DNA from: Terriglobia bacterium
Lineage (GTDB): Bacteria; Acidobacteriota; Terriglobia; Terriglobales; Acidobacteriaceae
Length of the DNA stretch: 64,000 nt
Direction: 5' to 3'
Assembly (NCBI GenBank): GCA_020072645.1
Contig: JAIQGK010000023.1
Span: 1-64,000 of the forward strand
Shown: in pieces, positions 6,908-43,356 of the stretch
How positions within the stretch are numbered: position 1 is the stretch's first letter
Layout of the letters: every line of letters begins with the position of its first letter
Position numbers and translations under genes: made by a program
The notes under the pieces: generated by a model
What the model was told of the DNA's origin: nothing
Database searches by the model: none
Seen by the model: only the letters and a program-made list of their open reading frames with translations

Positions 6908-7936
6908 ATGCGACGGAATGGTTGGGCCATCCTTGCGGCAACAGCTGCATTTATGCTGTGTGCTGCTTTCTACTTGACGGTCGGCGTAACGCCGGCTGCT
7001 GCTGACAACTCCTATTGGGGCGCGAACTATTTCCCCAACGTGCCGCTCATCACACAGGATGGCAAAACCATCCACTTTTATGACGATATGCTGAAAGGCA
7101 AAATCGTCCTGATCAACTTTATTTACACCGAATGCGGGGAAACCTGCCCGCTTGAAACCGCCAAGCTTGCCCAGGTTTATAAATTGCTCGGCGACCGCAT
7201 GGGCAAAGACATCTTTTTCTATTCCATTACAGTTGACTCCAAGCATGACACCCCCTCCGTCTTAAAGGCCTATGCAAAGAAATTTCATACTGGCCCTGGC
7301 TGGTACTTCCTGACCGGTAAGAAGGAAGATATCGATACCGTGCGCAAAAAGATCGGCATGGCCGGACGCTTGGACGAAGATCCCCTTACAGGCCACACGA
7401 GCAGTCTGACCCTGGGCAATGAACCGCAGGGTCAATGGATGCAGGACAGCTCATTTGATGATCCGCGTTTCATTGCAACCATCGTCGGCAATTGGCTTAC
7501 GGCCGGATACCGCAAGGCCAGTAATAGCTATGAGAACGTGCCGAAAATTGACGAATCTGTTGGCGGTGGAGGGCCATCAATGTTCCGCACGCGCTGCGCA
7601 GCCTGCCACACCATCGGCGGTGGCGATGGCGTCGGTCCGGACCTGCTCGGCGTCACCACAGCTCACGGTCGCGACTGGGTCACCAGATACATCCTTGCGC
7701 CAGACAAAGCGCTGGCCGCAAAAGATCCTATCGCCATGGCCCTATTCAAAAAATACAACAAGGTCAAGATGCCGAACCTGCATTTGACTCCGGTCGATGT
7801 GAAGACTTTGCTCGACTATTTCGATAAACAAACAGCTACCGTCACACAGGCCGGTGATTCATCCGCGGACAGTACAAGCGCGATGAAGCCCGAGCCGGTT
7901 TCCACCAAAACCAGCCAGGCGCCAGGCAGAAATTAG
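6908..7936 (+). CDS. SCO1/SenC copper chaperone fused to a cytochrome c domain
   Basis: With the start at 6908 the protein has 342 residues and begins with a hydrophobic export segment (about 7-32). The thioredoxin-like SCO domain has the copper-binding CGETC at 76-80 and the third ligand histidine in TGHTSSL (H163). A mono-haem cytochrome c domain follows, with CAACH at 230-234 and a likely axial methionine in VKMPNLHLT (M288). SCO proteins deliver copper to CuA sites or act as thiol reductases; the fused haem suggests electron transfer to or from the copper site. An earlier ATG at 6875 has no ribosome binding site. The position after a multicopper oxidase suggests a joint role in periplasmic copper handling. 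Confidence 0.88.
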   Translation: MRRNGWAILAATAAFMLCAAFYLTVGVTPAAADNSYWGANYFPNVPLITQDGKTIHFYDDMLKGKIVLINFIYTECGETCPLETAKLAQVYKLLGDRMGKDIFFYSITVDSKHDTPSVLKAYAKKFHTGPGWYFLTGKKEDIDTVRKKIGMAGRLDEDPLTGHTSSLTLGNEPQGQWMQDSSFDDPRFIATIVGNWLTAGYRKASNSYENVPKIDESVGGGGPSMFRTRCAACHTIGGGDGVGPDLLGVTTAHGRDWVTRYILAPDKALAAKDPIAMALFKKYNKVKMPNLHLTPVDVKTLLDYFDKQTATVTQAGDSSADSTSAMKPEPVSTKTSQAPGRN

Positions 7937-7959
7937 TTGCCGTCCAGGCTGCGAGTGGG

Positions 7960-7995
7960 CCGCCCGATGCTTGAATGCGTCGGGCGGTATTTTTT
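7960..7995 (+). terminator. Strong intrinsic terminator after the copper module
   Basis: CCGCCCGATGC pairs with GCGTCGGGCGG (one G-T pair) around a six-base loop, followed by TATTTTTT. It closes the multicopper oxidase-SCO unit. Confidence 0.85.
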
Positions 7996-8145
7996 CACAC
8001 CCCGAGCGGAGCGAGGGGGCCCTATCGTCACTATAATATTTATAAGATCATCAAAGCGAATTCATAATCCTGAAGAAGCGTTTTAGATTATAGGGATCCC
8101 TCGCTTTGCTCGGGACTTCGGAAACCCTGCTAGAATCCTTTCCTC

Positions 8146-29935: not shown

Positions 29936-31249
29936 TTATTCGTCGCCGATGACACGATGGACGAGCGGCCTTTTTTGCAGCAGCGGAGCGGCTGCAATCG
30001 TATAACTCTTTTCAATCAGCGGAGCGGCATTCGCCAGACGCTCGGCTGAGTTGTAATAAACGGTGCAGAGCGCTTCGCCTGCGGAAACGGGATCGCCAAC
30101 TTTTTTGTGGACGATGATCCCCACAGCGGGATCAACGGAATCTTCTTTCCGCGCGCGACCGCCGCCCAGTAGTACTCCAGCCGTACCGATCTGCTCACAC
30201 ATGATGGCGGTAACGAAGCCGGAAGCTGAGCTTTTGATGTCGGCTTTTTGTTTTGCCTGCGGCAGAAGACTGGGATCATCGATCACTGCCGCGTTGCCGC
30301 CTTGCAGGCGAATCATCTCGCGGAATTTTTCACGGGCCTTGCCGCTGGCAATCATCTGCTCGGCCAGTTCCCTGCCTTCAGCAATGCTGCGGACACGCTT
30401 GCCCAAAAGAAACATTGAAGCGGAGAGCACAAGGCTAAGCTCGCGCAGATCGTCCGGGCCGTGGCCGTTCAGGACGTCAATGCATTCGGCAACTTCCAAG
30501 GCGTTGCCCACGGCGCGGCCCAGAGGCTGGTCCATGTCAGTAATCAGCGCAGAGACGCGCTTGCCCAGGCGCTGGCCGGTTTCAACCATCAGTTCGGCGA
30601 GAAACACCGCGTCTTTTTCGGACTTCATAAACGCGCCGCTGCCGGTCTTTACGTCCAGCACCAGCGCGTCAATGCCTTCCGCCAGCTTCTTGCTCATGAT
30701 GGAAGCGCAAATCAGGTACGGGCTTTCCACTGTGCCGGTAACATCGCGCAGCGCGTAAAGTTTTTTATCGGCTGGGGCGATCTCGGCGGTCTGGCCGATC
30801 AATCCTGCGCCGCACTGCGCCAGCACGCGGCGAAATTCACTGACAGAAAGATTCACGTTGAATCCCGGGATTGATTCCAGCTTGTCCAGCGTGCCGCCGG
30901 TGTGTCCCAGGCCGCGTCCGCTAATCATGGGGACATACAAGCCGGCCGCCGCGACAATCGGCGCAATGATCAAAGAAGTTTTGTCGCCCACTCCGCCGGT
31001 GGAGTGCTTGTCCGTTTTGGCCGCTGGAAGCTCAGAGAAATCGAGCACCTGGCCGGAGTGGAGCATTGTTTCAGTAAGCGCGGCCAGTTCGGCGCGCGAC
31101 ATGCCGCGCAGCAGCACGGCCATCAGCCACGCCGACATCTGGTAGTCGGGAATCTCATCACGGGTGTAGCCGTTGACGAGAAACTCGATTTCATTGCGCT
31201 GCAGCTCAACGCCATCGCGCTTACGGCGGATCAGGTCTGTGACTAGCAT
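29936..31249 (-). CDS. deoA: Pyrimidine-nucleoside (thymidine/uridine) phosphorylase
   Basis: A 437-residue enzyme with the family signature SGRGLGHTGGTLDKLES and the phosphate loop KHSTGGVGDKTSL. It splits thymidine, deoxyuridine or uridine into base and (deoxy)ribose 1-phosphate. Bacterial members are either thymidine-specific (DeoA) or broad (Pdp); I cannot tell which. The C-terminal swivel domain is complete. It lies 163 bases downstream of cdd on the same strand, with a palindromic repeat in between. Confidence 0.92.
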   Translation of the reverse strand: MLVTDLIRRKRDGVELQRNEIEFLVNGYTRDEIPDYQMSAWLMAVLLRGMSRAELAALTETMLHSGQVLDFSELPAAKTDKHSTGGVGDKTSLIIAPIVAAAGLYVPMISGRGLGHTGGTLDKLESIPGFNVNLSVSEFRRVLAQCGAGLIGQTAEIAPADKKLYALRDVTGTVESPYLICASIMSKKLAEGIDALVLDVKTGSGAFMKSEKDAVFLAELMVETGQRLGKRVSALITDMDQPLGRAVGNALEVAECIDVLNGHGPDDLRELSLVLSASMFLLGKRVRSIAEGRELAEQMIASGKAREKFREMIRLQGGNAAVIDDPSLLPQAKQKADIKSSASGFVTAIMCEQIGTAGVLLGGGRARKEDSVDPAVGIIVHKKVGDPVSAGEALCTVYYNSAERLANAAPLIEKSYTIAAAPLLQKRPLVHRVIGDE

Positions 31250-31261
31250 GCTCTCTTTTCA

Positions 31262-31322
31262 GGGGCTAAAGCCCAATTTTCTTGAGCTTACGGGGCGGCT
31301 AAAGCCGCGCCCTGACACTTGT
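31262..31322 (+). repeat. Palindromic spacer element (copy A)
   Basis: Two palindromes, GGGGCTAAAGCCC (31262-31274) and GCGGCTAAAGCCGC, are followed by GCCCTGACACTTGT. The last 13-14 bases are shared with copies at 32687-32771 and 40739-40804. Confidence 0.7.
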
Positions 31323-31412
31323 ATGGCATGATGAAAAATTTTTCCGATGTGCAAGATTGCGGCAATAGCCGAAGCCGCGCCTCCGTACCTACAGAGCTAA
31401 AGCAAAAAATTA

Positions 31413-32370: not shown

Positions 32371-32929
32371 GCTGAATTTCTCCTTTAGGATTTAAGTTAT
32401 GGCCCTCAGCCCGGCCTGCCATTTGCCGCGCGCTTGAGACCCCAGCAACTTCGGGTGCGACTAACATCCGAAGTTTGCTGTCCGTCATTAGCTAAGACAG
32501 AAGTCAGCGATCCGGCAGAACAAGGAATCGGGACCGCGCACAGAGTGTGCGTAAGGACAGTGGGCGAAGGGACTAGGTAGAGAGCAGCGGATGTCTCTGA
32601 TGCCGGTGAAGTAGTGGCTTTAACGTGCTCCGCTTCGCTGCGCACGAGCCTGCGGCGCAAGGAAGGAAATTTTTCGCGGGCTTTATGGCACGACTTCGCA
32701 GCCCTCGATTCCCCTTCGGCAAGCTCAGGGTCATCTCAGGCAGAGCGCTAAAGTCGTGCCCTGACACTTGTTTCTTGGATGGAAACAGCAAGACTAAATG
32801 TACGCAGGAGATTGCCAGGCGATGGCGCTTACGGAATTTATATCCCGCAAAGGACAGGGCACCCATTTGTGTCGTGAGGGATGGAAAAAGCTGGGGAACG
32901 GCGGGCCACCCGCCACCCGGCGGACGCAG
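32371..32929. other. Spacer with palindromic element (copy B)
   Basis: There are 559 bases without a convincing gene. At 32687-32771 a long hairpin, GGCACGACTT paired with AAGTCGTGCC across about 60 bases, is followed by CTGACACTTGT, matching the tail of copies A and C. Protein frames crossing it are by-products of the repeat. Confidence 0.6.
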
Positions 32930-40011: not shown

Positions 40012-43000
40012 TCAGTGAAAATCGTGCGACTGCATCTCTGCCGCCGTCACTTTCAGCGGCATAATTTTCTGCGCTTTCAGATGCACAATGCCATCCTGGT
40101 TCTGGACCACGCCCTTCACCTTGAGAAAACGCTCATGCAGCACTACCAGCGGATCGCTGCTGTAAAGGTCGGGCATAACAATAATATTGGAGTTGCCGGT
40201 TTCATCTTCCAGCGTGATAAAGATCAGCCCTTTGGCGGTTCCTGGTCTCTGCCGTGTGATTACGCTTCCCGCAACCACTGCTTGTTTTCCGTGCGGCGAC
40301 TCTCGCAGCTCCGCGGCGGAAAGTATTCCCATGCGCCGCAACGCGCTCCGCTGATACGCCATGGGGTGAGGTCCCACTGTCATGCCGGTTCCGTGATAAT
40401 CCGCCACCAGCCGTTCTTCAATCTCCATCTTACGCAGAGGTGATGCCGCGTCAGGCTCGATCACGTTCTCCAGCAGCGGTCCCACTTTACGCGCAGCCTT
40501 TTCAATTTGCCACAGCGCATCCCGCCGATGCATTTCTGTATTAGGATTTATGTGGTTCAACGCGCCGATCCTCGCCAGCATCGCCAGATTCGCGCGGCTC
40601 AGTTGCGGAACACGCAACGCCAGGTCTTCGGTCGATGTAAATGGTCTTTGCCTGCGTTCCTCGATCAGCGCTTCTGCCGCCGCTTGTTGCAGCCCGCGCA
40701 CGTAGCGCAGGCCGATCCGCAAAGCAATGGCTTTGGCAGGGGCTAAAGCCCCAGGGCTAGAAGGCATTTTTACGGCACGACTAACGTCGTGCCCTGACAC
40801 TTGTCTTGCCGACGCAATGAGTGTGGAACAAGTCGCAGTGTTCTCCTCATTCTCCAGCGTGCAATTCCACTCTGAGCAGTTTACGTCGATTGGGCGCACT
40901 TTCAGCCCGTGCCGCTGCGCGTCTTTCACCAGGGTTGCAGGCGAATAGAATCCCATCGGCTGGTTGTTGAGCAGTGCCGCTGTGAATGCCGCCAGGTATC
41001 GCACTTTCAGAAATGCGCTGGCGTAGGCAATCAGCGCAAAGCTGGCCGAATGCGACTCCGGAAATCCGTACAGCGCAAATGAGCTGATAAACTGCACAAT
41101 ATCGTCCTGCGCTTTTGGTGGGACTCCGTTCTGCGTCATCCCCGCGCGCAGCTTTACTTCAATTTCTTTCATCCGCTTTTCTGACCGTTTGTGTCCCAGC
41201 GCACGGCGCAGATCTTCCGCCTCGCCTCCAGTAAAGTTGGCGCAGATCATCGCCATCTTCAAAAGCTGTTCCTGAAACAGCGGCACCCCCAGCGTCCGCT
41301 CCAGCACAGGCTCCAGCGATGGATGCGGATAGCTCACCGCTTCCTTCCCTTGTCTGCGCCGCAGATACGGGCTGGTCATCTGCCCCGTGATCGGCCCCGG
41401 ACGAATCAATGCCACCTGCGTTACCAGGTCATAAAACTTTTTGGGATTATTCCGCGGCAGTGACGACATCTGTGCGCGACTCTCAATCTGGAACATGCCA
41501 ATCGTGTCCGCCCGCTGGATTACCCCATAAATGTCCGGACAATCCTGCGGCAAATGCGCCAGATCCACTTCTTCGTGATAGTGGTCCTGGATCAAGCCGA
41601 TTGAATCTTTTAGCACTGCCATCATCCCCAGCCCCAGCAGGTCAACTTTGACGATTCCCAGGTCGGCGCAATCATCCTTGTCCCACTGCACCACCACGCG
41701 CCCGGGCATGGTGGCCGGCTCCAGCGGAACGACGGAATCAAGCTGACCCTGGCACACCACCATCCCGCCGGAATGCTGGCTCAAATGTCGCGGCAGGTCC
41801 TGCACGCGCACGCACAGGTCAAGATATTTGGAAATGCGGTCCTGTGTCAGGTCCAGTCCAGCATTGGTGAAGTGCCGATCAAATGTGTCTTCCGGACCGC
41901 GCCACTCCCAGCCACCCACCAGTCCGGAAAGCTTGTTCAGGGTCTCGGTATCGAAGCCAAAAACTTTTCCCACCTCGCGCTCCGCCAGCCGTCCTCTGTA
42001 AGTGCAGACATTCGCTGTCATCGCCGCGCCCAGCTCGCCATAGCGCTTGTAAACGTACTGGATCGCCTTCTCGCGCTCGTCGCCACTCGGCAGATCCAGA
42101 TCGATGTCAGGCCACTCGCCGCGCTCTTCTGAAAGAAACCTTTCAAAGAGTAAGTCCATCCCCACTGGATCGATGGCGGTAATTCCCAGCGCATAACACA
42201 CTGCGCTGTTCGCCGCTGAGCCTCTTCCCTGCACCAGGATTCCGTTCTCGCGGCAGAAGCGCACAATGTCCCACACGATCAAAAAATATCCCGCAAGCTT
42301 GAGCTTGCCGATCAGCGCCAGCTCTTTCTCTAACTGCCGGCTTACGCGTTCCGTAATCGGCTTGTAGCGATCGCCAGCGCCCTTCATGGTCTGCGCCCAC
42401 AGAAAATCAATTTCCTGTCCGCCCTCCGGCACGGGATATTGGGGAAACTGGTAGCCAAGATTTTCCAGCGAAAATTCCAGCCGCTGTGAAAGCTCAACCG
42501 TGTTGGCAATGGCCTCAGGCAGATCGGCAAATAACCGAGCCATCTGCTCCGGCGTGCGCAGGCGGCGCTCCGCATTGCGGCACAGCAGCCGCCCAGCCGT
42601 CACCAGTTGCCGTTTGTTCTTGATGCAGGTGAATACGTCCAGAATCTCGCGGTCGGCTGCCGTGGCATAGCAAACGCCGTTGGTGGCCACGATAGGCAGC
42701 TTCAATTCCCGCGCCAGTTCCACCGCCGCATGGTTGCGAGCTTCCTGATGGCGCTCCAGATGACGCTGCAACTCCACATAAATATTCTTTGGCCCGAAGA
42801 TCGCCGTCAGCCTTTCCAGCAGCTTGCGTCCAGCGTCTTTGCCGTCATTCTCCAGCGCCCGGGCCAGCGGACCGTCTTCATCGCCGGTCAGGCAGATTGT
42901 CCCTGCGGCATGCTCTTCCAGTTCTTCCAGCGTCGCCCAGGATTCGGCATGCTTGGGCACACGCAGCTTGGTGCGAGTCAGCAACCGGCAGAGGTTCTGG

Positions 43001-43356
43001 TAGCCGATACGCGATTCGCACAGCAATGGGTAATAGACAGGTCTGATTTCTGTTGGCTCTTGGCTTTGTTTTCTTCGTCCCGCCAGACCTGATTCTGCGA
43101 AGCTTGATTCTGAGAAACGGTGTTCTGAGGGACCGCCGTTTTCATCCTTGATCGAAATTTCCACCCCAATATGGGCCTTTATGCGAAGTTTTTTCGCGCT
43201 CATATGAAATCGCGGCGACCCGTAAAATCCATTGCGGTCCAGCAGCGCCATGGCTGGCATGTTCATGGCCGCGCCCATATTCGTCAGCTCCTCCGGAACA
43301 GACGCTCCCTCCAGAAATGAAAAGGCTGAGCGGGTATGCAGTTCCACATATTTCAT
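40012..43356 (-). CDS. dnaE2: Error-prone DNA polymerase III alpha subunit DnaE2
   Basis: 1114 residues, the family's usual length. It opens YVELHTRSAFSFLEGAS (PHP domain), contains the catalytic aspartates in EWPDIDLDLPSGDER, and ends with an OB fold. It performs damage-induced mutagenic translesion synthesis, normally with ImuA and ImuB, neither of which is in the window. Residues of about 852-873 (RQVSGHDVSRAVKM followed by PSSPGALAPAKA) are not conserved polymerase sequence: they are encoded by a palindromic repeat element (40739-40804) inserted in frame between the CTLE and RIGLRYVRGL segments. The insertion keeps the reading frame intact, so the protein may be functional. Confidence 0.93.
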   Translation of the reverse strand: MKYVELHTRSAFSFLEGASVPEELTNMGAAMNMPAMALLDRNGFYGSPRFHMSAKKLRIKAHIGVEISIKDENGGPSEHRFSESSFAESGLAGRRKQSQEPTEIRPVYYPLLCESRIGYQNLCRLLTRTKLRVPKHAESWATLEELEEHAAGTICLTGDEDGPLARALENDGKDAGRKLLERLTAIFGPKNIYVELQRHLERHQEARNHAAVELARELKLPIVATNGVCYATAADREILDVFTCIKNKRQLVTAGRLLCRNAERRLRTPEQMARLFADLPEAIANTVELSQRLEFSLENLGYQFPQYPVPEGGQEIDFLWAQTMKGAGDRYKPITERVSRQLEKELALIGKLKLAGYFLIVWDIVRFCRENGILVQGRGSAANSAVCYALGITAIDPVGMDLLFERFLSEERGEWPDIDLDLPSGDEREKAIQYVYKRYGELGAAMTANVCTYRGRLAEREVGKVFGFDTETLNKLSGLVGGWEWRGPEDTFDRHFTNAGLDLTQDRISKYLDLCVRVQDLPRHLSQHSGGMVVCQGQLDSVVPLEPATMPGRVVVQWDKDDCADLGIVKVDLLGLGMMAVLKDSIGLIQDHYHEEVDLAHLPQDCPDIYGVIQRADTIGMFQIESRAQMSSLPRNNPKKFYDLVTQVALIRPGPITGQMTSPYLRRRQGKEAVSYPHPSLEPVLERTLGVPLFQEQLLKMAMICANFTGGEAEDLRRALGHKRSEKRMKEIEVKLRAGMTQNGVPPKAQDDIVQFISSFALYGFPESHSASFALIAYASAFLKVRYLAAFTAALLNNQPMGFYSPATLVKDAQRHGLKVRPIDVNCSEWNCTLENEENTATCSTLIASARQVSGHDVSRAVKMPSSPGALAPAKAIALRIGLRYVRGLQQAAAEALIEERRQRPFTSTEDLALRVPQLSRANLAMLARIGALNHINPNTEMHRRDALWQIEKAARKVGPLLENVIEPDAASPLRKMEIEERLVADYHGTGMTVGPHPMAYQRSALRRMGILSAAELRESPHGKQAVVAGSVITRQRPGTAKGLIFITLEDETGNSNIIVMPDLYSSDPLVVLHERFLKVKGVVQNQDGIVHLKAQKIMPLKVTAAEMQSHDFH
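40739..40804 (+). repeat. Palindromic element (copy C) inside dnaE2
   Basis: GGGGCTAAAGCCCC (40739-40752) and the 8-base-stem palindrome GGCACGACTAACGTCGTGCC (40774-40793) are followed by CTGACACTTGT. The order and tail match copies A (31262-31322) and B (32687-32771), which lie between genes. Confidence 0.8.

Follow-up and report, generated by a model that had tools for sequence, protein, structure and literature searches.

Rickettsia offers the best-known case of a small repeat colonizing coding sequence in frame: its palindromic elements (RPEs) lie in unrelated genes and encode a recurrent peptide; the account of them in PMC10969869 names no transposase in the passages that concern us. A transposase is in sight for REPs and REPINs—dispersed inverted pairs of palindromes that flank the gene of a REP-associated Y1 transposase (RAYT, or TnpA-REP)—and PMC6006769 gives classes of TnpA-Y1 transposases. 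REPs of the GTAG and CGTC families were also described inside genes by Di Nocera et al. in 2013, many of the hosts serving repair or replication and DnaE2 being named among them (PMC3733652). The same paper describes acidobacterial repeats (TIRs) that flank TIRYT tyrosine transposases in K. versatilis, T. saanensis, A. capsulatum, and G. mallensis. Among the titles listed by literature searches, with subscription journals mostly outside their scope, none deals with in-frame REPs of Acidobacteriota.

The locus described here lies in a window of 64,000 nucleotides (positions 1 to 64,000 of contig JAIQGK010000023.1) from the 6.44-Mb genome of Terriglobia bacterium GCA_020072645.1, called G000 below; other G numbers are its relatives. 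A complete gene for the error-prone DNA polymerase DnaE2 contains, on the opposite strand, one copy of a dispersed two-hairpin repeat. The features of the window are as follows.

40012..43356, minus strand: dnaE2, error-prone DNA polymerase, complete, 1114 aa, host of the insert
40739..40804, plus strand (opposite to the gene): REP doublet inside dnaE2, two hairpins and a tail; 67.6 bits with model R1 and 81.2 bits with model R2, this copy being among the sequences that built both
40739..40752, plus strand: left hairpin, palindrome GGGGCTAAAGCCCC
40774..40793, plus strand: right hairpin, GGCACGAC-TAAC-GTCGTGCC
40791..40804, plus strand: conserved tail GCCCTGACACTTGT
40729..40806, minus strand: REP-encoded peptide RQVSGHDVSRAVKMPSSPGALAPAKA, DnaE2 residues 851-876, 26 codons
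40735..40842, minus strand: inserted loop (DnaE2 residues 839-874) flanked by strands 833-836 and 877-880, with disorder predicted
31249..31342, plus strand: intergenic copy of the same doublet with both palindromes, 87.9 bits
32681..32791, plus strand: copy of the right half, its hairpin loop about 57 bases long

How does this element compare with the described systems? It resembles REPs/REPINs with their RAYTs in its dispersed inverted pairs of palindromes and in the Y1 transposase gene that they flank, but it differs from canonical REP/RAYT systems in that some copies lie in frame inside genes. At the foot of the hairpin, neither the GTAG/GTGG nor the CGTC tag is present: the consensus foot is TCAG, where canonical REPs are described with GTAG or GTGG, so that the element stands outside the canonical super-families and also apart from the intragenic GTAG and CGTC families of PMC3733652. 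The TIR/TIRYT repeats likewise flank tyrosine transposases, a likeness drawn by description only; unlike the present element, they have no in-frame insertion reported in section 16 of that paper. With RPEs the element shares in-frame insertion in unrelated genes and a recurrent peptide, a likeness of behavior for which we claim no membership. It differs from the RPEs of PMC10969869 in phylum, in size (about 66-78 nt here versus about 150), and in having a linked transposase gene.

The repeat family and its linked transposases

How widespread is the repeat in its own genome? The tail GCCCTGACACTTGT occurs exactly at 33 places in G000 and with one mismatch at nine more, versus one place for a reversed control pattern; at up to three mismatches within the window alone it has 10 places against 4.85 expected, so loose tail matches carry little meaning. 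A genome search with a covariance model (right hairpin and tail) found at least 48 places at E < 0.01; because it scored 150 of 1921 first-look candidates, weak copies may have escaped. The model was built from 26 sequences, most of them among its own 48 places, and its alignment omits L009, L012, L017, and L030, in which the palindrome is absent or interrupted, as well as L024, a near-duplicate of L023. Both the tail and the hairpin of the dnaE2 copy are identical to those of other copies. The sequence-only reading had placed the same palindromes and tail between genes at 31262 and 32687; both palindromes are indeed present at the first position, but the second has the right hairpin only. Two copies of the right hairpin with a long loop similar to that at 32687-32771 lie at C5:110213 and C5:111243, and several copies near C5:110028-112165 are mosaic, carrying another left half of the GCGCTCCGC...GCGCGC type.

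The consensus doublet has the layout of a REP pair: its two halves face each other, and each starts with TCAGGG. Across 25 distinct genome copies, three pairs of the right stem are altered on both sides; examples of paired stems are GGCACGAC/GTCGTGCC, GGCACGAG/CTCGTGCC, and GGCACGGC/GCCGTGCC. In a hairpin covariation test 96% of stem cells are paired, and double changes fill 19 cells versus 5.7 in shuffles, with none of the 500 shuffles reaching 19. Two of the five measures of the test were unexceptional, namely double-change pairs (32 of 500 shuffles) and further pair types (158 of 500).

The genome has eight Y1 transposase matches and three RAYT genes. Two of the RAYT genes (C5:110324-111830) are 97% alike and have seven tails around them (C5:110028-112165), and the third (C13:24244-24708) sits amid divergent repeat copies at C13:23848, 24172, and 24737. 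The RAYT protein matches the NCBIfam model NF047646 (REP_Tyr_transpos) with 98.8 bits against a cut-off of 80. Its motifs NHFH, WQPGFSD, and YIDNNP resemble those tabulated in PMC6006769 for class 2 proteins (NHFH, WQ, YI..NP); the class 3 signature given there, Y....Q with a CnGA foot, was not found, the RAYT reading YIDNNP. A transposase gene in the relative G008 (C149:7479-7940) likewise has repeat matches on both sides, at 7400-7438 and 7957-8010. With dispersed short imperfect palindromes, often in inverted pairs, and a linked REP-associated Y1 transposase gene flanked by the repeat, the element is, judged from sequence, of the REP/RAYT kind, with the RAYT as its candidate transposase. 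The dispersed copies and linked RAYT genes agree with the earlier proposal that the element is or was mobile; movement itself we infer from them.

Across 37 genomes (G000-G036), RAYT presence weakly tracks the repeat and is a weak predictor of it: a RAYT match at E <= 1e-15 occurs in 15 of the 20 genomes with the peptide-coding repeat versus 8 of the 17 without. At this threshold G003, with 32 matches to the repeat, lacks a RAYT. In the same genome, VSGHDFSRAV units form an array next to the gene of a DnaE-like polymerase (L246, G003:C82:3754-3945).

The insert in DnaE2

The dnaE2 frame contains no internal stop across its 1114 codons, and its product matches the NCBIfam model for error-prone DNA polymerase (NF004225) with 1189 bits against a cut-off of 939. 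The insertion is thus in frame without stop or frameshift, as the sequence-only reading held. That reading had sized the insert at about 22-26 codons (residues about 852-873), which fits the REP-derived part, residues 851-876, and falls short of the whole linker. DnaE2 has 44 linker residues in G000 and in its sister G006 versus eight in G007, or 36 additional codons; set against the 26 that are REP-derived, this leaves about 10 extra codons without a recognizable REP. Assembly error is unlikely, as inserts are present in separate genomes, one of them (L274) on a 5.99-Mb contig, and an intron or intein was set aside by reasoning from size (about 78 nt).

Do related polymerases show empty sites, as was predicted for a mobile insertion? 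In the same genus, DnaE2 of G007 and of G003 have linkers of eight and nine residues, respectively, versus 44. Among the 30 loci that aligned best, in which the linkers were compared, the peptide is present in two, those of G000 and G006 only. It was found in none of 34 further DnaE2 proteins, the aligned part of 80 loci from named records of Acidobacteriota, mostly Terriglobia and Acidobacteriaceae. The peptide is therefore far from being conserved in all DnaE2 homologues, the observation that had been named as fatal to the insertion. The G006 protein is 95% identical to that of G000 over DnaE2 residues 641-1114 and carries the same insert; because the insert is common to both, the insertion appears to predate their split, and the sequences are most simply explained by one insertion in the common ancestor. 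The two copies have decayed differently: in G006 the right hairpin has the usual loop and the left palindrome is mutated, and in G000 the left palindrome and the right stem are intact and the loop is changed. Compared with the empty sites, the insert shows no evident target duplication of the kind looked for in MITEs, in an alignment with empty homologues that are only 75-78% identical in protein.

In the domain layout of DnaE2, the insert falls within the HHH_6 match. Stretches aligned by phmmer end at query residue 837 (885 in Taq polymerase III alpha) and restart at 880 (Taq 888). An AlphaFold2 model from 35 sequences (mean pLDDT 81.7) has strands at 833-836 and 877-880 and a pLDDT of about 25 for residues 839-874, a low value that is partly expected because most aligned homologues are without the segment. 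In this model, the peptide is predicted to fill a beta-hairpin loop and to be disordered there.

Constraint on the REP codons is relaxed. In the comparison of G000 with G006, dN is 0.111 and dS 0.237 for the 26 REP codons, compared with 0.016 and 0.349 for 434 codons outside the loop; their dN is thus sevenfold that of the remaining gene, with the frame still open. None of 408 outside windows of 26 codons attains their six nonsynonymous changes. The open frame and unchanged length of the insert in both genomes, at a synonymous divergence of about 0.35, favor the earlier suggestion that the element can serve as a peptide-coding insertion. We read the inserted peptide as a tolerated passenger or spacer, whose frame is maintained and whose residues are less so.

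Other genomes of the family can have long linkers of their own, both in the insert loop and in a second loop near residue 935 (up to 98 and 82 residues, respectively). When six long linkers were joined as one query and searched in their own six genomes, each linker found itself, with totals of 3 (G030), 36, 37, 40, 43, and 62 matches, some of which fell on another genome's linker. These linkers are other repeats (e.g., GTTTC-type inverted arrays and GC-rich palindromes). Because the long linkers match dispersed repeats, DnaE2 loops appear to gather different repeats of this sort. In-frame repeats in DnaE2 of relatives (L046, L048, L052, L054, and others) include a HGASRG...APEGRKN element in the translated frame and GTTTC inverted arrays.

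In-gene copies across the family

Are there other in-frame insertions of the element, as the sequence-only reading suggested collecting? In G000, 50 places were checked for an open frame across the repeat, a check whose reach extends to unbroken genes. Homology confirmed two copies as lying inside genes, one in dnaE2 and the other in a Ser/Thr kinase (Pkinase). Family scans covered these two frames; the other long frames L072, L092, L097, L186, and L195 were judged by eye. The kinase copy is as follows.

G000:C3:162838-162924: in-frame copy in the kinase (locus L091), between GLAK and GTPGYMAPE

The stretch between these motifs is what we take to be the activation segment. The kinase copy, QVSGHEFTRAVQDPLRSGALAPEN, uses the orientation and frame of the dnaE2 copy. 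A 73% identical orthologue in G004 keeps the insert open with degraded palindromes. Among 25 genomes there is no empty kinase orthologue, the gene being present in two, both with the insert.

A peptide model built from six in-gene copies in the sense frame and searched in 250 family genomes matches 145 of them at E <= 0.001. In other families of the class, the model has 89 matches in G051 and 120 in G056 at E <= 10. Of 40 places fetched—the other 28 frames that reach 400 aa and 12 shorter, hand-picked ones—38 were scanned (all but L279 and L284), together with three from 20 regions fetched earlier (L231, L232, and L235). NCBIfam scans of these 41 proteins (E <= 1e-40 or 1e-20) place the copy inside a recognized protein in 28 cases. 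The hosts are tlyA (four), alaS (three), rnr (three), argS, thiL, murC, ATP-dependent DNA ligase, and mnmG (two each), and recG, yoaA, an Lhr-like helicase, folC, metH, gyrA, a YdiJ-like dehydrogenase, and rsmG (one each). In 11 of the 28, one NCBIfam alignment runs through the copy, and Pfam matches lie on both sides of or across it in 16 more, three of which (L255, L276, and L285) rest on a second stretch given without its position. In L253, which begins at a contig end, one side only is available; L254 carries an identical copy. Among the other 13 proteins, the copy is N-terminal or the N-terminal part is lost in five (purF in four, agmatine deiminase in one), and eight match no family. In the agmatine deiminase (L281, from G203), the repeat stands just before profile residue 89-104 and the frame lacks the enzyme's first part; this is possibly a gene broken by the repeat.

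Several of these cases are probably shared by descent: tlyA, thiL, and the ligase are all from genus g50, and murC is from g28. Copies share one site between genera g9 and g50 in alaS (L251, L256, and L272), among g4, g69, and g29 in rnr (L231, L264, and L277), and between g9 and g61 in argS. This pattern may reflect recurrent sites or old insertions that have been much lost.

Is one reading frame preferred? Both confirmed genic copies in G000 are in the sense frame, though any of six frames would count; in the family-wide search, sense-frame dominance is biased by a search that itself used that frame. As a control, the antisense frame (SGAKAP-x-ARLKSCPDT) was searched in the same 250 genomes. 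Among the matches listed, stop-free frames of at least 400 aa number 33 of 150 for sense versus 8 of 150 for antisense. The sense count is 29 without the four rows that helped build its query, and Fisher p is 3e-5 and 1.7e-4 in a comparison that is unfair, since rows are related, the top 150 matches only are counted, and several of the copies behind the antisense query sit in genes in the sense frame, so that this query puts those very places at the top. One of the eight antisense cases is a clear internal insertion (MutS, L295, in G067), with the repeat in the opposite orientation; L292 has family matches only far from the peptide, and six match no family at E <= 1e-20. A sense-frame preference is suggested by these counts. 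An antisense frame is also open in 35 of 45 copies examined. The sense frame is open in 10 of the 16 doublets surveyed in G000, counting the two in genes; the repeat can thus often be translated on its own.

Competing explanations and their implications

What history best accounts for the dnaE2 insert? With considerable confidence, we favor a REP doublet (REPIN-like) of a family probably spread by an IS200/IS605 (Y1)-type RAYT, one copy of which would have entered the beta-hairpin loop just before the helix-hairpin-helix region of dnaE2 before G000 and G006 split. The insert would have survived because it offered an antisense reading frame without a stop (VSGHDFSRAV-x6-GALAP), a frame-keeping length, and a tolerant loop. 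It would now be translated as a probably unstructured spacer, drifting as protein and no longer kept as a repeat. Two other readings of the segment fare poorly. That it is an old linker lost elsewhere, resembling the repeat by chance, we consider extremely improbable; the varying linker length among relatives speaks for it, and against it stand the match of 67.6 bits (E 1.6e-21 for the window, with a model that the copy helped build), the exact tail and hairpin in other copies, and the short linkers of same-genus G007 and G003. Translational bypass elements are known systems, and the hairpins formed and their location inside conserved genes would suit a segment skipped by ribosome hopping or RNA processing. 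Yet such skipping needs neither freedom from stops nor frame-keeping lengths, and the inserts have both, orthologues differing in length by nothing or by multiples of three; the genic-copy search demanded an open frame, so that skipped out-of-frame copies lay outside its reach. We consider skipping very improbable.

A useful peptide, one that changes DnaE2 activity or partner binding, or a role of the mRNA hairpins in regulating expression, seems unlikely to us. Di Nocera and colleagues (PMC3733652) speculated in this direction about REPs in repair genes. The frame is intact in dnaE2 of G000 and G006 and in the kinase of G000 and G004, where the insert and the rest have the same dN (0.155 and 0.160) and the insert has the lower dS (0.48, from few sites, against 1.31). 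Many recognized hosts are replication, repair, and translation genes, but these are also the genes that families recognize most easily. Usefulness is further at odds with the sevenfold dN of the dnaE2 insert, with its presence in 2 of 30 and 0 of 34 DnaE2 proteins, and with a loop that elsewhere holds unrelated repeats or almost nothing.

Taken singly, the dnaE2 insertion belongs to a type already described, intragenic REPs having been reported in 2013 with DnaE2 among the hosts named in PMC3733652; the interesting part is the spread through the coding sequence of a family with a linked transposase. The RAYT-linked REP might be a translatable module, one frame of which tends to be open and which colonizes gene loops with the same peptide repeatedly, a generalization that we judge evenly balanced. 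If true, it would be a counterpart of the Rickettsia elements with the transposase in sight, and alaS, rnr, and argS would be recurrent loop sites across genera. The habit best known from Rickettsia is now seen in another phylum, in several genera of one family, with a repeat-flanked RAYT gene. This makes it testable how selfish repeats enter genes unbroken and whether the peptides they donate become useful. It is also a warning that polymerases, tRNA synthetases, and gyrase in this family may carry loop insertions that mislead alignments and annotation.
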